IMG/VR virus record: IMGVR_UViG_3300023294_001081
Span: 1 to 26,189 of that record
Origin: a virus
Direction: 5' to 3' (one strand)
DNA: 26,189 nt
Below, piece by piece: positions 6,716 through 20,432 of the stretch. The first letter of the stretch is position 1; every line of letters starts with the position of its first letter. The position numbers were made by a program, and so were the translations under genes. The notes beneath the pieces are model-generated. The model was given only the letters and a program-made list of their open reading frames with translations. It was not told the origin of the DNA and ran no database searches.

Positions 6716-6737
6716 GTTGCAAGAAACACAGCACGAT

Positions 6738-6760
6738 TTTGCTATGTCGACACATAATAA
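6738..6760 (+). promoter_or_regulatory. putative phage promoter-like element
   Basis: A 54-base gap precedes the gene at 6770. It contains GACACATAATA (6749-6759), an 11-base exact match to the gap before the gene at 10804. CATAAT resembles a -10 box, but no TTGACA-like -35 sits at 16-18 bases, so a phage sigma factor or an activator would be needed. A ribosome-binding site (AAGGAC/AGGAC) follows immediately, so the leader would be very short. It could instead be an RNA-level element. Confidence 0.35.
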
Positions 6761-6769
6761 GGACAGGAC

Positions 6770-7183
6770 ATGAACACGTTTACAATCTACTTTGAATGCG
6801 ACAACTGCACTCATATTCAATCGTTAAAGATCAAGTCCGATAAGTGCTTCTATCAGATTGAAGGTCAATATCTGGATGAGGATAAAAAGACAAAGACTGA
6901 GACGTGTGAGAAGTGCAGCTCTGCCAGCATGTCTTATCATACCTCCGGTGACGGACCCTCTGTTCTTGGCGGGACAAAGGGATATGTCAGCATGGAACGC
7001 TACCAGCAGTTGAATCCAGACAACTACAAGCGCAAGGAGGAAGAGTTGGAAACTAAGATGGCAGACAGACATCGCAAGCGCGTCCTCGACAAACTTAATA
7101 AAGAGATGGGCGGTGGAAGACGACAAGACAGACATGAAGGCTACGGCAAAGGCCAAGGCGAAGAGAGACTACGAAATGACTAA
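6770..7183 (+). CDS. hypothetical zinc-ribbon protein
   Basis: 137-aa protein of unknown function. The N-terminal half shows two CxxC knuckles, Cys10-x2-Cys13 (FECDNCTH) and Cys46-x2-Cys49 (ETCEKCSS), separated by 32 residues with beta-like sequence between. This is a zinc ribbon of the kind used for nucleic-acid or protein contact. A middle linker GTKGYVSMERYQQLNPDNY is followed by a strongly charged, helix-forming C-terminal part (about residues 85-137) rich in Lys, Arg and Glu. It is the first gene after a promoter-like gap and its stop overlaps the DNA polymerase start by eight bases, so the two are likely coupled and it may assist replication. No enzyme motif is visible. Confidence 0.7.
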   Translation: MNTFTIYFECDNCTHIQSLKIKSDKCFYQIEGQYLDEDKKTKTETCEKCSSASMSYHTSGDGPSVLGGTKGYVSMERYQQLNPDNYKRKEEELETKMADRHRKRVLDKLNKEMGGGRRQDRHEGYGKGQGEERLRND

Positions 7184-10100
7184 AAATAACGAAATCGTCC
7201 ACCTCCACAATCACTCAAGTCACAGCTTTCTTGATGGTCAAGCCTCTATCAAGAATATGGTTGCTAGGGCAAAGGAGCTAGGGTTGGACGCCATGGCTAT
7301 TACCAACCATGGTAATATCTTTGCCTGGGTAGAGTTCTTCAAGGAGTGCCAGAAGGCTGGAATCAAGCCGATCCTTGGTAGTGAGTTCTACATGACGGAC
7401 GAGCACGACCTTAAGAACCGTCATGCACATCACCTAGTTGTGCTTGCGGAAAACGAGGTTGGATTGAATAACATCGTGCAGCTAACCACCCGCGCAAACG
7501 AGAACTTCTTCTACAAGCCACGTATTGACCTTAAGGACCTTGAGCGTCATAAGGAGGGGTTGATTGTCCTAACTGCGTGCATGCACGGTCCTATCTCCTA
7601 CTGGTTGTTTGATAAGATGTCATGGCCAGTCCCCGGCGAAGAGTCCAAGCTTAAGGAAGCAGCTAACGTTCCAGAGGCGTATCGCTTTGCTAATGAGCTG
7701 AAGCGAATCCTAGGACCGGACAACTTGTTTCTAGAAGTCCAAGACGGTGGTATCCCAGAGCAGCTCTTGATCAACAAGAGGGTCCGTCAGATGGCGGGAG
7801 AGATGGGGTTGAAGACAGTGGCGACACAAGACGCGCACTATGTCAACCAGGACGACGCTACCGCGCATGGCTTTCTAAAGGCTATGGCGTGGGGAAAGGT
7901 TGGAGTCCCACAGGGGGAGAGTGGATTCTCCACCAACGAATTCTACATTAAAAACAGGAAGCTTGTCCTAACAGACTCTGACATTAAGCCGTCAGAGGTA
8001 GACATCACGCGAGAGATCTCAGACCGATGCAACGCAGTGCTAGATCTCAACAAGATGCGCCTGCCGACTTATCCAACAGAGGATCCGCGCCCATCTATCG
8101 AGATCCTCAGGGAGAAGCTGCGTGAAGGTTGGACCCGCCGTGACATCAAGGACCCTAAGGGTGTCTACGCTGCTCGCGTTAAACACGAACTTAAAGACAT
8201 CGAGGGTGCCGGTCTAGAAGACTACTTCCTGATCGTGTCCGACATTACTGACTACTGTCGTAAGAATGATGTAATGCTTGGTCCGAGTCGCGGTTCTGCT
8301 GGTGGCTCGCTTGCTAGTTTCCTACTGGGTATCACGCAGATCGATCCGATTCAGTATGGTCTGATCTGGGAGCGATTCTACAACGCTGGTCGTAAGGGCT
8401 CCATGCCAGATATTGATACTGACGTGGAGAAAAGTCGGCGCGACGAGGTCATCGCCTATATTCGAAAGCGCTTTGGCGAACAACGAGTGGCGCAGATCGT
8501 CACCCTATCATCTCTAGGTGCCAAACAAGTCATCCGAGATGTATTTAAGGTTGCGGGTATTGACGAAAGCGTCAAGAGCCTTATCGCTGGCTTGATCCCA
8601 GCTAAGAACGAGGACCATGGTTCGATCAGTCTTAAAGAGGCTATCGCGGCAGTCCCAAAGCTGAAGGAGTATTCAGAAGATGCAAAACCATTCGATATCA
8701 TCCGAGGAGGAAGAGTCATTAGAACAACGTCCTGGAAAGAGTTGTTCGACATTGCGGGTCGTCTTGAGGGGTGCTATAAAACTAGCGGAGTTCATGCTGC
8801 TGCGGTTGTTATTGCTGATGATGATTTCTGCCGTGCTGGTGTCCCCCTCGTAAAGGGCGCTAGAAAGGAAGACTTGATCTGCGGCTGGGACATGGATTCG
8901 GTTGATGCGCTTGGTCTGCTCAAGGTGGATATCTTGGGAATCGCGACACTCGACGTTCTTAAGACTGCACTCGGGCTAATCAAGCAGCGCCATGGCAAGA
9001 CCTACGAGCTACTAGAACTCCCTCTAGATGACAAGAAGGTATTTCAGCTACTAGGTGATGGATACAACCAAGGTGTATTTCAACTAGAGTCTAACTTAGG
9101 TAAGTCATGGTCTAAGAAGTGTCAGCCACAGACAATTGAAGAGATCGCTGAACTTGTGGCTATCATTCGTCCTGCGTGTTTGGACACGGGGATGTCTGAG
9201 AGTTACGCGAAGATCAAGAGTGGTGAAGAGACTCCGAGCTACATTGACCCAATCCTTGAGCCTATCCTAGAGCCGACGAAGGGCATCTTGCTTTACCAGG
9301 AGCAGGTTATGGCTATCTGTCAGGCTGTTGCTGGAATGGACCTAAAGGATGCTGATGCTGTCCGAAAGGTTATTGGTAAGAAGAAGCCAGAAGAACTTCG
9401 ACAGAAGAAGAAGGAGTTCATGGATGGCGCAGCAAAGAACGTAACCAAGAAGGTTGCAGAAGAGATTTGGGGCTGGATTGAGAAGCAGGCTGGCTATGGC
9501 TTTAACAAGAGTCACGCGGTTGGCTATGCTGTTATGGCTTACTGGACCGCATGGGTAAAGGCCAACTACTTCCTAGAGTTCATGACCGCCAATTTGATGC
9601 ACGCCAAGGATAAGGCTAACCAACAACGAACCCCACAGGATGTTATCGCTCAGTTTGTGAATGATGGCAAGCTGAAGGATATCGATGTGGTTCCGCCACG
9701 TATTGAGACTAGCGAGATCGACTTCGCCATCGTGGGTCCAACGACTATCTCGTATGGTTTCTCTCACATCAAGGGAGTCGGAGTGTCTGCACTTAAGTCA
9801 GTTAAAGCCTGCCAGGGCGCTAAGACCTTTACCGAGTTCCTTAATCTTGCCTCTACAAGTAAGATGAATAAGCAGGTAGTCGAAGCATTCATCTGTGCTG
9901 GCGCACTAGATGGCTACGGCATCGCCAGACGCTCCATGAAGGCGCAGTATGCCCTCTGGGACGCACTGACGGATAAGGAGCGTTCCAACCTAGGCTTTTA
10001 TCCCGGGGTCCTCCTAGAGCAGCTTACGGCGCTCACGGACGAGACTACGCTAGATGAGCGGAAGGAAAAGAAGATGGCGGTTCCCAATGTGAACCGCAGA

Positions 10101-10535
10101 GCAAAGATCAGAGTCTTGATCGACGAGTTTAACCAGGAGAGCCACAGAGACACAGTGGCTCAGCTTCTGGTATGGGAGAAGGCTTACCTCGGAGCTACGC
10201 TTTCGGGCAGCATGGCTGACCTTGAGCGGGCCATGAGTGGGGCGAAGCACACGTGTCGAGATGTAGGCACCGGCATGCCTCCGGGGACTTACGTTAATCT
10301 CTGCGTGGTCGTCGAAGAAATGAAGGAAGTGACGGTTAAGCGTGGTAAAACGCAAGGTCGTCTCATGTCGTTTATCACCTTAAGTGACTCTACATATAGT
10401 CTAGATGGCTCATGTATTTTCCCAGATCTTTATGACAAAGTCAGATTGATGGGAATTGGCGTAGGTGATGTTGTATCTGTAAATGGTAAGATGTCCGATC
10501 GAGGACTAATCGTAAATCAAATGAGGTTGTTGTAA
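7176..10535 (+). CDS. dnaE: DNA polymerase III alpha subunit (DnaE type)
   Basis: 1119-aa family C replicative polymerase, near bacterial DnaE length (~1160). The N-terminal PHP domain starts with VHLHNHSSHS. All family metal ligands appear present: the HLH pair, Asp in FLDG, His in TNHGN, Glu in LGSEFYM, His in HAHHLVVLAEN, Cys in LTACMHG, and Asp/His in TQDAHYV. Palm residues: GPSRGSAGGSLASFLLG, then MPDIDTD (Asp412, Asp414), and Asp585 in GLLKVDILGIATL. Fingers and helical motifs include YQEQVMAICQAVAGM and NYFLEFMTANL. A helix-hairpin-helix (IKGVGVSALKS) and a C-terminal OB fold follow. ATG 7176 overlaps the previous stop by eight bases and starts like other DnaE proteins; an in-frame GTG at 7113 would only add a charged, low-complexity leader. 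Confidence 0.95.
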   Translation: MTKNNEIVHLHNHSSHSFLDGQASIKNMVARAKELGLDAMAITNHGNIFAWVEFFKECQKAGIKPILGSEFYMTDEHDLKNRHAHHLVVLAENEVGLNNIVQLTTRANENFFYKPRIDLKDLERHKEGLIVLTACMHGPISYWLFDKMSWPVPGEESKLKEAANVPEAYRFANELKRILGPDNLFLEVQDGGIPEQLLINKRVRQMAGEMGLKTVATQDAHYVNQDDATAHGFLKAMAWGKVGVPQGESGFSTNEFYIKNRKLVLTDSDIKPSEVDITREISDRCNAVLDLNKMRLPTYPTEDPRPSIEILREKLREGWTRRDIKDPKGVYAARVKHELKDIEGAGLEDYFLIVSDITDYCRKNDVMLGPSRGSAGGSLASFLLGITQIDPIQYGLIWERFYNAGRKGSMPDIDTDVEKSRRDEVIAYIRKRFGEQRVAQIVTLSSLGAKQVIRDVFKVAGIDESVKSLIAGLIPAKNEDHGSISLKEAIAAVPKLKEYSEDAKPFDIIRGGRVIRTTSWKELFDIAGRLEGCYKTSGVHAAAVVIADDDFCRAGVPLVKGARKEDLICGWDMDSVDALGLLKVDILGIATLDVLKTALGLIKQRHGKTYELLELPLDDKKVFQLLGDGYNQGVFQLESNLGKSWSKKCQPQTIEEIAELVAIIRPACLDTGMSESYAKIKSGEETPSYIDPILEPILEPTKGILLYQEQVMAICQAVAGMDLKDADAVRKVIGKKKPEELRQKKKEFMDGAAKNVTKKVAEEIWGWIEKQAGYGFNKSHAVGYAVMAYWTAWVKANYFLEFMTANLMHAKDKANQQRTPQDVIAQFVNDGKLKDIDVVPPRIETSEIDFAIVGPTTISYGFSHIKGVGVSALKSVKACQGAKTFTEFLNLASTSKMNKQVVEAFICAGALDGYGIARRSMKAQYALWDALTDKERSNLGFYPGVLLEQLTALTDETTLDERKEKKMAVPNVNRRAKIRVLIDEFNQESHRDTVAQLLVWEKAYLGATLSGSMADLERAMSGAKHTCRDVGTGMPPGTYVNLCVVVEEMKEVTVKRGKTQGRLMSFITLSDSTYSLDGSCIFPDLYDKVRLMGIGVGDVVSVNGKMSDRGLIVNQMRLL

Positions 10536-10768
10536 TGAGTTATATGGAATACAAGGAAGTTAAGGTCCCGGATAATGTGTGTGAAAAGCTTGAGGCTATG
10601 CGGACGGCGAATGATCCTGCTAACCCGCCGACGCTAGGTGGTGCTGGTTTTTTCGAATTCCTAAATGCACTTGCAGAGAACGAAGGCTGGAGGGCTGTGT
10701 GGGCTGGATTTAACTTTCCGTATCTAGTTTTGGAACGTAAAGTTGTTTTAGATAAGTCTGAAAAATAG
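10535..10768 (+). CDS. hypothetical small protein
   Basis: 77-aa protein, function not recognised. The sequence begins MSYMEYKEVKVPDNVCEKLEAM and ends in a short charged tail. The centre (GGAGFFEFLNALAENEGW, then AVWAGFNFPYLVLERK) looks like a small amphipathic helix followed by a beta strand, with no catalytic motif, signal peptide or membrane span. The style resembles small phage proteins that carry a general 'make sure the reply is computed properly' fold, with no assigned role. Start and polymerase stop share one base (TAATG), so it is co-translated with DnaE and could be a polymerase accessory factor. It is followed by a 35-base promoter-like gap. Confidence 0.6.
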   Translation: MSYMEYKEVKVPDNVCEKLEAMRTANDPANPPTLGGAGFFEFLNALAENEGWRAVWAGFNFPYLVLERKVVLDKSEK

Positions 10769-10778
10769 CATACGAATT

Positions 10779-10800
10779 TAGCATCTAGACACATAATAGA
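10779..10800 (+). promoter_or_regulatory. putative phage promoter-like element (second copy)
   Basis: The 35-base gap before the gene at 10804 contains GACACATAATA (10788-10798), identical over 11 bases to 6749-6759, within a slightly longer similarity (TAGACACATAATAGAGG here). The ATG follows five bases later with GAGG as the ribosome-binding site. As in the first copy, there is no convincing -35 hexamer. Recurrence in two separate gaps, at similar distance from a start codon, is the main evidence. Confidence 0.35.
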
Positions 10801-10803
10801 GGT

Positions 10804-11310
10804 ATGGCCAAGATCACTACTACCATTAATGGCATTCATGGAACTGTCAAGATTGTCATCGTCGATAAAGACGAGAAGCAGACAATGGACTTCCGGTGGT
10901 GTATCTTTGACGAAAATCAATCGACAGGATTTGTAACATCCTTTAGTGAAGGTCCGATTATGGTAACTGAACTTGCGGCTGAGCAATTCATCCGCACGGT
11001 TACAGCTAGCTTAGTTCGAACCTTCGAGGTCAAGCCAGGAGACCTAACGATTATCAACCACATGGGAGAGTGTCTCTCCGATGTGCAGTTTTTACCCCCA
11101 ACCTTAAAAGGGAATGAGGCAGACATCACGATGTTTGTTTCTCAGCAGACGGCGCTACTCAACGTATATTCTAGATATGATGAGGTTGGTGTCCTTAATG
11201 CTGAGATCATTCAAATTGCAGAAGATGAGGGTATTGTGGATGACTTCTTGAGTCTCGTTCAAATTCGAGCCTCTGGAATCTTTTTGGCAGTTAGAAAACC
11301 AAGTCAGTAG
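10804..11310 (+). CDS. hypothetical protein
   Basis: 168-aa soluble protein that I do not recognise. The first ~75 residues are rich in alternating hydrophobic and polar residues (TVKIVIVDKDEKQTMDF, FRWCIFDENQSTGFV), consistent with a beta-sheet domain. The second half is more helical and acidic (ALLNVYSRYDEVGVLNAEII, DEGIVDDFLSLVQIRASG). No cysteine cluster, nucleotide-binding loop, signal peptide or membrane segment is visible. The ATG follows a GAGG ribosome-binding site and a promoter-like motif, and SSB starts 11 bases after its stop, so it is probably transcribed together with SSB and the sigma factor. A replication or early-late switching role is only a guess from this position. Confidence 0.65.
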   Translation: MAKITTTINGIHGTVKIVIVDKDEKQTMDFRWCIFDENQSTGFVTSFSEGPIMVTELAAEQFIRTVTASLVRTFEVKPGDLTIINHMGECLSDVQFLPPTLKGNEADITMFVSQQTALLNVYSRYDEVGVLNAEIIQIAEDEGIVDDFLSLVQIRASGIFLAVRKPSQ

Positions 11311-11321
11311 GAAAAAAAAAT

Positions 11322-11738
11322 ATGGATCAAGGATCAGCAGTTGTAGTCGGTCGCCTTTCGCGTGACCCCCAGTTCTTTGGAGAGGGTGACAAGCAGCGCG
11401 CAGTGTTCTCTATCGCGTATAATCGCGGTCGTGACGAGAAGCGTAAGGCAAACTTTATCGACGCTATCGCCTGGGGCAAGCGTGCAGATATCATGCGTGA
11501 CTTCACCAAGGGTATGGGCATTTTTATCACGGGTGACCTTGAACAGGATAGTTATGAGAATAAGGAAGGCGTTAAGGTAAGCCGTGTCCAGGTGAATGTG
11601 AATAGTATTACTGCGACCACAAGCACCCGTCGTTCGGACAACGAAGATGCAACCGCTAATGCTGGTGGTGGTCAAGCTAGTGGTGGTAATGATCGCTCCT
11701 CGTCGCAGGGCAGCGAGTCCGCTCCGATCCCCTTCTAG
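11322..11738 (+). CDS. ssb: single-stranded DNA-binding protein
   Basis: 138-aa SSB with an N-terminal OB fold (residues 1 to ~100) that opens SAVVVGRLSRDPQFFG and contains AVFSIAYNRG, FIDAIAWGKRADIM and GIFITGDLEQDSYENKEG, matching the bacterial/phage SSB pattern 'N...v.lvGrL..dPe', 'f.ia', 'wgk.Ae' and 'GrL....y....G'. A Gly/Ser/Asn-rich flexible linker follows. The last residues, SAPIPF, resemble the SSB tip DDDIPF used to recruit replication partners, but the acidic run is weak. It would coat single-stranded DNA for the polymerase, primase and recombinase encoded upstream. ATG follows an AGG then a run of nine A; the stop lies inside a small hairpin that reaches toward the sigma gene. Confidence 0.9.
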   Translation: MDQGSAVVVGRLSRDPQFFGEGDKQRAVFSIAYNRGRDEKRKANFIDAIAWGKRADIMRDFTKGMGIFITGDLEQDSYENKEGVKVSRVQVNVNSITATTSTRRSDNEDATANAGGGQASGGNDRSSSQGSESAPIPF

Positions 11739-11742
11739 GGGG
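11728..11742 (+). promoter_or_regulatory. hairpin spanning ssb stop and sigma ribosome-binding site
   Basis: CCCC (11729-11732), loop TTCTA and GGGG (11738-11741) form a short GC stem, extendable by a U-G pair. The right arm is part of AGGGGG, the only Shine-Dalgarno-like sequence ahead of the sigma factor ATG at 11753, and the ssb stop codon sits in the loop/right arm. Ribosomes finishing ssb would open it, which would couple sigma translation to ssb. It is not followed by a U-run, so it is not a terminator. Confidence 0.35.
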
Positions 11743-11752
11743 TCTAGTTGCC

Positions 11753-12391
11753 ATGACGTTGTGTAGGATGGATCAATCTCCAGATAAGGTATATCTCAAG
11801 CATCGAGGCTTAATCAGATCTCTGATTAACTCGATCGTGGTAAATAACCCAGCAGTCGTAGATACGCAAGATCTACAACAGGCAGGTGCTCTAGCACTTG
11901 TGGTTGCGCTGAAGTCATACGATCCATCACTTGGGTCTCTCCCATCCTATATACGTAAGTGTATCCGCCACGCTCTATTAGAGCAAGCCAACTCATTCAG
12001 TAACGTATTTACGGTTGATGAGAAAGTGCGCCGTCAAGCCAATGCCGTTCGTCGTATGAGGCGAGACGGAATTGACGATGCGGAGATCATGGCTAAGCTC
12101 GGAATCAAAACCCGGGCTACTTTTCTTTCTTTACTAGGACTAGTTGAGAATCGTTCCGTTGATCCCAATCAGATTGAGGTAGTCGATGACACTTCTCCTG
12201 AAGAAGGCAGCATCTTTAAGGTGCTAGATGAGATCGGATTGACTGAACAGGAATTGAAGTTCGTCAACTTAGTAACAAGTAACTATTCGATGGATGATAT
12301 CGTAACGGAGATGGCGGTGAGTCGCTCCACCTTATTCGTTATCAAAGCATCTATTCGTGACAAGATCCTGGCATGGGGCCAGGACAGCTAG
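11753..12391 (+). CDS. small sigma-70-family factor
   Basis: 212-aa RNA polymerase sigma factor that would redirect host polymerase to phage promoters, a role like T4 gp55. Region 2 is at about residues 37-78: DTQDLQQAGALALVVALKSY then YDPSLGSLPSYIRKCIRHAL, matching the sigma-70 pattern 'DLxQxGxxGLxxAxxxYDPxxGxxFxxYxxxxIR'. A region 3-like helix-turn-helix lies around 105-130. Region 4 is at about 162-205 (LTEQELKFVNLVTSNYSMDD, then IVTEMAVSRSTLFVIKASI), fitting -35 recognition. The ATG at 11753 is downstream of AGGGGG; Met6 at 11768 is an alternative start. It sits exactly between the replication genes and the glycan island, the right place for a factor that switches on later genes. Confidence 0.82.
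   Translation: MTLCRMDQSPDKVYLKHRGLIRSLINSIVVNNPAVVDTQDLQQAGALALVVALKSYDPSLGSLPSYIRKCIRHALLEQANSFSNVFTVDEKVRRQANAVRRMRRDGIDDAEIMAKLGIKTRATFLSLLGLVENRSVDPNQIEVVDDTSPEEGSIFKVLDEIGLTEQELKFVNLVTSNYSMDDIVTEMAVSRSTLFVIKASIRDKILAWGQDS
12366..12384 (+). other. 7-bp GC-rich hairpin at end of sigma gene
   Basis: TCCTGGC and GCCAGGA pair perfectly around the loop ATGGG, lying within the last codons of the sigma gene. No U-tract follows, so an intrinsic terminator is unlikely. It may slow 3' decay or mark the border between the replication and glycan segments, directly before a promoter-like sequence. Confidence 0.4.
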
Positions 12392-12405
12392 ACAGGATAA
12401 ATAAG
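12388..12405 (+). promoter_or_regulatory. late-promoter-like element before glycan island
   Basis: The 21-base gap between the sigma gene and the first glycosyltransferase contains CTAGACAGGATAAATAAG. It shares CTAGACA with the gap at 10785-10791, and GATAAATA differs by one base from the T4 late promoter core TATAAATA. AAGGA (12403-12407) serves as the ribosome-binding site for ATG 12413. The call rests on resemblance and position only. Confidence 0.3.
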
Positions 12406-12412
12406 GAACTGC

Positions 12413-14290
12413 ATGGGTGTCGAGAGTAAAGAAGACTACAAGAAGCGCATTCTCTTTGTCGGAGAAGCGTCTTTTCTAAACACGGGATTTTCTAATATCT
12501 ACGATCAACTACTGCCTCGCCTTGCTGCGACTGGTAAGTATGAGATTGCGGAGTTCGGTTCCTATGCCAGGGATGATGATCCCCGTATCAAGGGATCTAT
12601 CCGAGGCCGGTGGAAGTTCTACGGCAACCAACCAATGACTCCTGAAGAGGAGCAGGTATTCCAACAGCAGGATCCGGCTCAGCCAGGACAGAACACTAAT
12701 CAGTTTGGTCGATGGAAGTTCGAGCATGTTCTTTCTGATTTTCGTCCTGATATCGTAATTGATATTCGTGACTGGTGGATGGTCGCATTCCAAGAGCGAA
12801 GCCCATTCCGCAAATACTTCAACTGGTTGGTAATGCCGACTGTTGACTCGATCCCTCAGAAGGAAGAATGGATCAACACCTATAACGGTGCTACCTATGT
12901 CATGGCATACTCCGACTTTGGTATTGACTCGCTTCGCAAGTCTTCGCCACGTCTAGAGTTACGCTCTGACCCACCGGGCAAGCCTGGGTTCATTGGTATT
13001 GATAAGATGCCCGGCAAGCTACACCCTGTGCCAATGCGTCCAGGTGTTGACCTGAAGACGTTCCATCCGCGTGACGATAAGGCTAAGGCGGAGCTGAGGC
13101 AAAAGTGGGGTCTCAAGCCTGACGTGCCAATCATCTTGCTGGTGCAGCGAAACCAAGCTCGAAAGCGTATCTCGGAAGTCATCCAGTCGTTCGCGCTTAT
13201 GAAGAAGGCGTTCCCGGATGATGAGACCGTGCAGAAGTCAATTTTGCTTATGCATACTGCATGGCCAGACAACGCTATGTCAATCGACTTCCCTCGTGCT
13301 ATTGCCCGCATCCAAACTGGCACTCACGGTATCCCGGTAACTCGCAAGGGAATCATTCGAGAAGTATGTTCGACATTCATGTGTCATAACACAACATGTG
13401 GTGATGTGTTTGTTGCTCCTTCAATTAACCTACGCCAAAGTCACACAATTATGTGTCCTAAGTGCGGTCAGCAATCAGCTAGAACTCCAACTACTGGAGC
13501 TGGACTTACTCGTGAGCAGCTATCCGAAGTCTACGGTATGGCTGACATTATGGTGCAGATGAGTATTGCGGAAGGCTGCGGCATGCCCGTCCAAGAAGGA
13601 AAGGCGTGCGGTATCCCAGTGCTGGTGACTGACTACGCTGCCATCTCCGAGAAGGGCAAGGTCCCTGACTATGACCACATCGACAAGAAGACTTACGATG
13701 TCAACAAGGGTGGCGAGGTAATGAAGGTCAGTCAGCTTTACGAAGAGCCCGAAACTACTTGCTGGCGTGCTGCCACGTCTATGACTGACTGCGCTCAGAA
13801 GATGGGTGACATGCTAAGTGATCATAAGCGACTTAAGACAATGAGTGTCGAAGCCCGCGAGTGTGCTGAGAAGCATTATGACTGGGATAAGAACTATAAG
13901 GAATGGGAGTTCATCCTAGACCATATTACGCCATTGGATCGTGACAAGACCTGGGATAAGCCTGTGTCTCTAGTTGAGATCGATGCGCAGCAACCTCCAG
14001 CAGATGCAACTGACGAAGCGTTCGTTGTCTGGTGCTACACAAAGGTGCTAGGTTATGCAACCGAGCATGACATTGATGAGGACGGACGACGTAACTGGAT
14101 GCAGAAGCTATCTGTCGAAGTATCGCGAGGAGTCCCCGCCGAAAAGACCCGTGGCGAGATAGCTAACTTCTTCCGTCAGCAGGCTGAGGCTCAGAATCAA
14201 GTTGAGCTTATGCGTGCAGGGAAGACTAATGAACCGTCCGCGCAAGTGGGCAGTGAAGACACCGATTCGTTCGAGGCAATGATTCTATGA
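12413..14290 (+). CDS. GT-B (GT4-like) glycosyltransferase with zinc-ribbon insert
   Basis: 625-aa protein, long for a GT4 enzyme (~380-420). The N-terminal Rossmann half opens RILFVGEASFLNTGFSNIYD, and the C-terminal half carries the family signature AEGCGMPVQEGKACGIPVLV with the E-x7-E pair Glu387/Glu395, which contacts the donor nucleotide sugar. Between them, at Cys324-x4-Cys329 and Cys348-x2-Cys351, is a zinc-ribbon insertion (MCHNTTC ... CPKCGQQ) not usual in GT4 proteins. A C-terminal ~110 residues add a helical extension ending in an acidic tail. It would transfer a sugar from a nucleotide-sugar donor; the acceptor is unknown. It is the first gene of the glycan island. Its stop overlaps a homing-endonuclease remnant (TATGATG). 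Confidence 0.82.
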   Translation: MGVESKEDYKKRILFVGEASFLNTGFSNIYDQLLPRLAATGKYEIAEFGSYARDDDPRIKGSIRGRWKFYGNQPMTPEEEQVFQQQDPAQPGQNTNQFGRWKFEHVLSDFRPDIVIDIRDWWMVAFQERSPFRKYFNWLVMPTVDSIPQKEEWINTYNGATYVMAYSDFGIDSLRKSSPRLELRSDPPGKPGFIGIDKMPGKLHPVPMRPGVDLKTFHPRDDKAKAELRQKWGLKPDVPIILLVQRNQARKRISEVIQSFALMKKAFPDDETVQKSILLMHTAWPDNAMSIDFPRAIARIQTGTHGIPVTRKGIIREVCSTFMCHNTTCGDVFVAPSINLRQSHTIMCPKCGQQSARTPTTGAGLTREQLSEVYGMADIMVQMSIAEGCGMPVQEGKACGIPVLVTDYAAISEKGKVPDYDHIDKKTYDVNKGGEVMKVSQLYEEPETTCWRAATSMTDCAQKMGDMLSDHKRLKTMSVEARECAEKHYDWDKNYKEWEFILDHITPLDRDKTWDKPVSLVEIDAQQPPADATDEAFVVWCYTKVLGYATEHDIDEDGRRNWMQKLSVEVSRGVPAEKTRGEIANFFRQQAEAQNQVELMRAGKTNEPSAQVGSEDTDSFEAMIL

Positions 14291-14374
14291 TGAAGAATGG
14301 TGTATATCAAATTCGACATAGCGCAAACTACAGTAAGCGCTATCAATAATAGAAAAATCTGGAGTCATGTATGA
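14287..14374 (+). pseudogene. GIY-YIG homing endonuclease ghost (ends only)
   Basis: Translation from ATG 14287/14290 gives (M)MKNGVYQIRHSANYSKRYQ then TAA TAG. This matches the start of GIY-YIG endonucleases and is nearly the same as the start at 26126. In another frame, 14336-14374 reads VSAINNRKIWSHV-stop, matching the end of the related DNA-binding domains at 21626 and 22514. So about ten to twenty 5' codons are joined out of frame to the last thirteen, with the whole catalytic and linker part missing. TATGA brackets the remnant (14286-14290 and 14370-14374), and the last codons supply GGAG and the ATG of the next gene. It cannot encode an active nuclease. Confidence 0.7.
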
Positions 14375-20395: not shown

Positions 20396-20432
20396 GTGTG
20401 ACAAGGAACGGAACTGTAGGTGGGTGTCATGA
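20388..20432 (+). CDS. 14-codon bridging ORF (possible coupling peptide)
   Basis: ATG 20388 overlaps the SLOG stop and TGA 20430-20432 overlaps the next ATG (ATGA). The frame encodes MSECDKERNCRWVS. It exactly fills the 33-base gap between genes and would let terminating ribosomes carry on to the glycosyltransferase. It may be a coupling peptide or chance; no homology can be claimed. Confidence 0.25.
   Translation: MSECDKERNCRWVS

Follow-up and report, generated by a model that had tools for sequence, protein, structure and literature searches.

In this study we examined a 26,189-base stretch of viral DNA, the whole of the virus record IMGVR_UViG_3300023294_001081 (hereafter the window), which carries the 11-mer GACACATAATA exactly twice on the + strand, at 6749-6759 and 10788-10798, with no other mismatch-free copy. 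We propose that at both sites the 11-mer forms the −10 half of a bipartite, phage-specific sigma promoter that drives the replication block, and that its most likely reader is the sigma factor encoded at 11753, here called sigma1; taken as a whole, we consider this reading probable. A sequence-only reading of the window had pointed to the repeated motif as a promoter for a phage sigma factor, perhaps the one at 11753. That the sites are a promoter for a phage sigma is now strongly supported by related phages, where the element is bipartite, oriented with the strand, placed before start codons (once before a transfer RNA (tRNA) gene) and conserved in five divergent groups with clean controls. 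The element, a pairing of GCACGA(A/T) with CATAAT that we call class 1, very probably starts transcription of DNA-replication genes. Its two predicted copies in the window are as follows.

6725..6759, + strand: class-1 promoter, copy 1, with a −35-like GCACGAT at 6731-6737 and a 16-nt spacer from GCACGA to CATAAT at 6753-6758
10764..10798, + strand: class-1 promoter, copy 2, with a −35-like ATACGAA at 10770-10776 and CATAAT at 10792-10797

Results

The two sites in the window

Taken alone, the window says little about this repeat: 179 of its 25,996 distinct + strand 11-mers occur at least two times, and matches to GACACATAATA with up to two mismatches number four, below the shuffle mean of 7.55. 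An 11-mer seen twice is not rare here; the claim becomes strong only with the relatives and the extended element. The two sites are identical at 28 of the 45 positions ending with the 11-mer, and an ACGA block that precedes the 11-mer by 13-16 bases is among the shared letters. A chance repeat of an AT-rich 11-mer, for which the commonness of such repeats speaks, is refuted by the held-out tests, which detected the element in each of the six relatives scanned while the controls stayed clean, and we give it a practically nil probability.

The third site of the sequence-only reading, CTAGACAGGATAAATA at 12388-12403, had been taken for a looser relative and does not belong to the set. Its best alignment to the 11-mer has four mismatches, and the matrix scores printed there all lie below −20 bits, against 36.8 at copy 1 and 41.4 at copy 2 (45.2 and 46.0 in a second matrix run). 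It is made up of the end of the sigma gene, its final codons with the stop TAG at 12389-12391, and runs into AAGGA, a Shine-Dalgarno-like stretch shortly before the ATG at 12413. A one-mismatch site on the − strand at 13447 was also rejected, being antisense within the gene 12413-14290 and giving no matrix match. The overlap of nearly all other genes, remarked on in the sequence-only reading, is broadly borne out: by our own gene list the gaps of at least 20 nt are 6716-6769, 10769-10803, 12392-12412, 14291-14370 and 20396-20419, and the element occupies two of the five.

The element across the phage group

Named phages gave no near DNA match to the window, a tblastn search of 50,697 named phage records returned no relative of sigma1 or of a further sigma factor of the relatives (sigmaL), and the portal and tape measure proteins had weak partial matches only among named phages. 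Related viral contigs were gathered by searches with sigma and DnaE proteins, and a scan with a strict element pattern added others. They comprise group A (the window, G000, with G001-G005), group B (G009 and its overlapping fragment G008), group C (G007, 175,148 bases), group D (G006, 81,875 bases) and group F (G011, 47,866 bases). G006, G002 and G011 are fragments; the 175-kb genome of G007 is probably complete, since its two contig ends (5-130 and the last 126 bases) carry the same 126 bases as an exact direct repeat.

The matrix derived from aligned sites is A-rich from −27 to −23 and reads GCACGA(A/T) from −18 to −12. T is weakly favoured at further positions and stands at −2, ahead of GACACATAATA at 0 to 10. 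The order of A-rich tract, GCACGA(A/T), 11 bases and GACACATAATA is fixed in spacing. The 16-nt spacer between GCACGA and CATAAT, present in all matrix sites, agrees with the general architecture of sigma70-family promoters, which have two conserved blocks 15-19 nt apart, the downstream one TATAAT-like. When the matrix was trained with each phage group held out, and reversed sequence and ten third-order Markov shuffles each served as controls, matches above the threshold of 15 bits numbered 6 in G002, 2 in G005, 6 in G009, 13 in G007, 4 in G006 and 2 in G011, with no reversed match and a shuffle mean of 0; at 12 bits, G011 gave one reversed match. The match at G007:67711 (21.6 bits) is weak, lies within a gene and was dropped, and 32 sites, all outside the window record, form the list used below. 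The element was recovered in all six relatives scanned, from five divergent phage groups, and was near-absent from the controls. Two near-independent tests agree with this: G009 was found via the element and then held sigma1 at 73% identity, and G011 was found via sigma1 alone and then held the element. The site of copy 1 has orthologues in G002, G005, G006, G007 and G009.

Scanned over the viral collection, the strict form matched 11 stretches in 8 contigs, 7 of them from this phage group; the match in contig G010, antisense within a gene of a contig of 26% GC, is a chance one. The cellular genome collection yielded 4 matches in 4 unrelated records. This distribution bears out the claim of a phage-specific signal, and it also bears on the possibility that a host sigma factor, housekeeping or alternative, reads class 1, with or without an activator from the phage. 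Ordinary sigma70-family promoters do resemble class 1, with its CATAAT and a −35-like block 16 nt away, and the same phages carry host-type TTGAC-N17/18-TATACT promoters elsewhere. Moreover, the strict form catches 7 of 34 known sites, so that a host set with a variant consensus could escape it, and the host may be absent from the collection. However, the strict element is enriched in no cellular genome, and within these phage genomes class 1 has another consensus than the host-type promoters; a host reader is in our view distinctly improbable.

Position relative to start codons

At 12 of the 32 sites an ATG lies exactly 5 nt past the element, and 11 of these ATGs begin an open reading frame (ORF) of at least 30 amino acids (aa); at G007:64632 the +5 ATG opens a very short frame only, and the credible start is at +18. 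At the remaining sites the ATG distances are scattered; most measure 10-22 nt, and the ATG is often preceded by a Shine-Dalgarno-like stretch. We rely here on the raw site count, as a count by downstream family (5 of 12 families at +5, P 6.7e-7) rests on grouping by eye. At the +5 sites the first base of CATAAT stands 12 nt before the ATG. PMC3160421, as excerpted, gives a −10 element some 12 bp ahead of the start codon as a sign of leaderless genes, which are common in Actinobacteria and Deinococcus-Thermus. With the element 5 nt before the ATG, transcription would therefore start on the ATG itself and give a leaderless mRNA.

For the 10788 site the 5-nt distance to the ATG recurs in six of the six relatives compared, the five letters in between are not conserved (gaggt, gaggt, gaagt, gggat, gatat and atact), and the N-terminus of the downstream protein is conserved in relatives from the ATG onward. 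The predicted transcription start of copy 2 is the A of ATG 10804, which would make its mRNA leaderless, and that of copy 1 falls at about 6765, before ATG 6770. The tRNA gene mentioned above is one for tRNA-Ile, and the element at G007:14268-14278 stops 8 nt short of it. The class-1 promoter there (G007:14244-14286) has its predicted start 1-2 nt before tRNA-Ile(GAU), so that the transcript of this tRNA would have next to no 5' leader.

Some actinophages have asymmetric repeated operator sites, and the element, being asymmetric, repeated, located in short intergenic gaps and oriented with transcription, might be the binding site of a regulatory protein and not a promoter. Its bipartite form with an unconserved gap speaks against an operator, as do the distance of exactly 12 nt from the TATAAT-like block to the ATG, which matches that of leaderless genes (excerpt of PMC3160421), and the copy placed right before a tRNA gene. 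We regard the operator explanation as very improbable.

Genes downstream of the two copies

The genes that follow the two copies in the window, as called by a home-made script that places some starts wrongly (for example in the frames around the orthologues of the 6749 site), are listed here.

6770..7183, + strand: CxxC-containing protein, encoded just after copy 1; at E 0.001 it matched neither a PHROG nor a Pfam family
7113..10535, + strand: DnaE-type DNA polymerase III alpha; phrog_405 (E 2.8e-282), PF07733, PF17657 and PF02811
10804..11310, + strand: first gene of the copy-2 operon, 168 aa; likewise without a PHROG or Pfam match at E 0.001
11322..11738, + strand: single-strand DNA-binding protein (SSB), second gene of the copy-2 operon; PF00436 (E 1.3e-15), phrog_44 (E 2.1e-23)
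11753..12391, + strand: sigma1, FliA/WhiG-like, third gene of the copy-2 operon; PF04542 (E 2.9e-7), phrog_351

The polymerase gene 7113..10535 belongs to the transcription unit after copy 1. The true start of sigma1 may be ATG 11768, to judge from an invariant Met6 in alignments. By eye, the counterpart of copy 1 in G006 and G007 is contained in a reading frame that encodes Cys pairs (RCKKC), and the window keeps the element without the frame (sites compared: window 6716-6759, G007:86126, G009:60816 and G006:75714).

Sigma factors of the group

Up to three sigma factors are encoded per phage in this group. Sigma1 has regions 2 to 4, matching TIGR02937 with 44.4 bits against a cut-off of 42.9 (residues 11-205 to positions 4-161 of 165), exceeds the cut-off of PF04542 and carries a C-terminal helix-turn-helix, which places it, with its regions 2 and 4, in the sigma70 superfamily. 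Its match to the NCBIfam model FliA_WhiG (E 3.8e-9) reaches 36.6 bits, below the cut-off of 189.6, and its best solved relative is FliA 6pmi (E 2.5e-5). By these scores sigma1 is FliA-like and not a member of the FliA/WhiG family. The gene is present in 10 of the 11 element-bearing records, the eleventh, G008, being a fragment, and the element precedes the sigma1 operon in all six relatives compared. The further sigma factors of the relatives are the following.

G009:3714-4337, G006:25510-26118 and G007:139050-139661: sigmaL, region 2 only, heads the structural arm
G007:29289-29915 and G009:128192-128833: sigma3, regions 2 and 4, in accessory arms

The TIGR02937 match of sigma3 spans 22-198. 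The AlphaFold model of sigmaL is poor (pLDDT 57.0).

Promoter classes and gene blocks

Class-1 elements lie upstream of replication and accessory genes, on the strand of those genes. A second, promoter-like motif, TTAGTGTAT, found de novo in the relatives, marks structural genes and has no −35 element: over its 36 intergenic sites no upstream column exceeds 0.31 bits. Exact copies are intergenic in 30 of 37 cases, though about 6% of the sequence is non-coding. When the blocks of G007, G009 and G006 are taken together, a single class-1 site falls in a structural block and 16 fall in replication blocks, whereas of the 21 intergenic TTAGTGTAT sites 19 are in structural blocks and 2 in replication blocks (Fisher p 1.5e-7). 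This comparison left out five TTAGTGTAT copies within called genes and the sites in accessory arms; structural blocks were defined in G007 by terminase, portal and tape measure, and in G009 and G006 by gene order and length. The sole class-1 site in a structural block precedes an HNH/Mom-like gene. The window holds no copy of TTAGTGTAT(A/T)A; examples in the relatives are listed here.

G007 131553, 128379 and 97984: TTAGTGTAT(A/T)A
G009 11614, 15177 and 25261: TTAGTGTAT(A/T)A
G006 31697, 35094 and 43577: TTAGTGTAT(A/T)A

The third class, TTGAC-N17/18-TATACT, is host-type in look and occupies the accessory arms (G007 1242-160881, G006 616-22426). Many of these promoters have an ATG 5-8 nt after the −10, and so look leaderless too. 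Such spacing at host-type promoters would suit a host good at leaderless translation, for example an actinobacterium. WhiB, tried as a sign of an actinobacterial host, was present in none of nine records.

Other features

In the window, the 80-nt gap at 14291-14370, after the first glycosyltransferase gene, contains an inverted repeat, ATAGCGC...GCGCTAT, and gave no match to any of the three promoter motifs. An element of 35-62 nt (core GCA-AGC-CGAG, then GGTGT) occurs fifteen times in non-coding gaps of the relatives, and every copy is antisense to the genes next to it. A host-type promoter immediately precedes four or more of the copies, and two others or the same are found some 270 nt past class-1 sites. 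It is possibly a small RNA family; Rfam gave no family match for the parts searched. Its copies are located as follows.

L027:15085-19741 and L028:955-1789 (G006): 35-62 nt element
L025:2943-11080 (G007): 35-62 nt element

ARAGORN reported a permuted gene resembling transfer-messenger RNA (tmRNA) at G007:144848-145276. It reported none in G006, where a tmRNA-like 3' end was seen by eye near 21.1 kb.

Discussion

The sequence-only reading had named the sigma factor at 11753 as the possible reader of the element, and it remains the best candidate. Because a bipartite motif needs a sigma factor with region 4, and a motif without a −35 element fits one lacking region 4, the reader of class 1 should be sigma1 or sigma3. 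Alternative sigma factors often drive their own genes, and since sigma1 is present in every group and its operon begins at the most conserved class-1 site, we favour sigma1 and consider it the likely reader. The competing arrangement is that sigma3 reads class 1 and that sigma1, made from class-1 promoters, reads the next set, as in cascades of the SPO1 type. Sigma3 does have regions 2 and 4 and sits in accessory arms, and the sigma1 gene is itself in a class-1 operon. However, sigma3 occurs in 2 of the 11 element-bearing records as against 10 of 11 for sigma1 (G006, G002 and G011, which lack sigma3, being fragments), and the structural motif without a −35 element fits sigmaL, which has no region 4, better than sigma1. 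An assignment of class 1 to sigma3 appears unlikely to us.

Several observations weigh against the preferred reading. In a cascade of the classical type, a sigma factor made from class-1 promoters would recognize the class that follows and not class 1 itself; because this argument points the other way, we hold the assignment to sigma1 no more firmly than as likely. G007 and G009 also encode sigma3, a possible alternative reader, and the poor AlphaFold model of sigma1 (mean pLDDT 54.9) leaves its domain calls to rest on sequence. Two of the 32 sites lie inside a reading frame (G007:86126 and G009:60816), and three are without a credible ORF downstream (G006:14814, G007:151313 and G007:174753); Rfam gave no family for the regions after such ORF-less sites, and their folding was not clearly better than that of shuffles (z −0.05 and −1.59). 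The low recall of the strict pattern in the collection scans, noted above, belongs here as well, and so does the comparison with sigma28 (FliA/WhiG), whose consensus is given in the excerpt of PMC2859248 as TAAAGTTT-n11-GCCGATAA. Class 1 can be parsed as GCACGAAW-n11-ACACATAA, with the same n11, but the block edges were chosen by us, and the −35 block GCACGAAW shares little with TAAAGTTT and does not qualify as a sigma28 −35. On the side of likeness to this consensus stand the ATAA at the −10 end and the FliA-like candidate reader.

Among other phages, a close parallel lies in SPO1 and SP10, which likewise have several phage-encoded sigma factors that partition middle and late genes; the resemblance of sigma1 to FliA is a difference from them. 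The letters of the SPO1 motifs differ from those of class 1. In Bacillus phage SPO1 gp28 serves middle and gp34 late genes, and SP10 encodes three sigma factors (excerpt of PMC9429907). Late promoters of Staphylococcus Kayvirus consist of TGTTATATTA with no −35 box (PMC7698491), and T4 gp55 is a phage sigma factor with its own promoters (PMC2988020), as far as the excerpts of these papers go. The TTAGTGTAT motif is of this late type, being a single block without a −35 element at structural genes, whereas class 1 departs from it in having a −35-like block with a conserved ACGA at offsets −16 to −13. Relative to the leaderless promoters of Actinobacteria and Deinococcus-Thermus, the signal here is phage-specific and is not the host TANNNT of the excerpted PMC3160421. 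Phage sigma factors with their own promoters are already known. A literature search with both motif sequences and for phage sigma promoters found no description of the element among the matches listed; as far as that search goes, the element sequence, the lineage and the regular leaderless geometry are new.

On the preferred reading, RNA polymerase with a phage sigma factor, likely sigma1, would recognize the A-rich stretch, the −35-like GCACGA(A/T), the 16-nt spacer and CATAAT, start transcription about 7 nt further on and so turn on the replication block. Class 1 would form an intermediate set between the host-type early promoters and the structural genes. At the 10788 site transcription would start on the A of the ATG and give a leaderless mRNA, and the inclusion of sigma1 in the copy-2 operon would close a positive feedback loop. 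We put forward more tentatively, and with rather less than even confidence, a three-tier programme with sigma1 on class 1, sigmaL on the structural promoters without a −35 element, and sigma3, in which the middle promoters would start on the A of the ATG, or in one case 1-2 nt before a tRNA, and a private sigma factor would be coupled to leaderless translation.

For large uncultured phages without a close named relative, a promoter code can here be read from the sequence. The code separates early-type, replication and structural gene sets, and it suggests which sigma gene goes with which promoter class. Should the leaderless reading be true, a phage sigma factor and a mode of translation would be linked by the geometry of the promoter.

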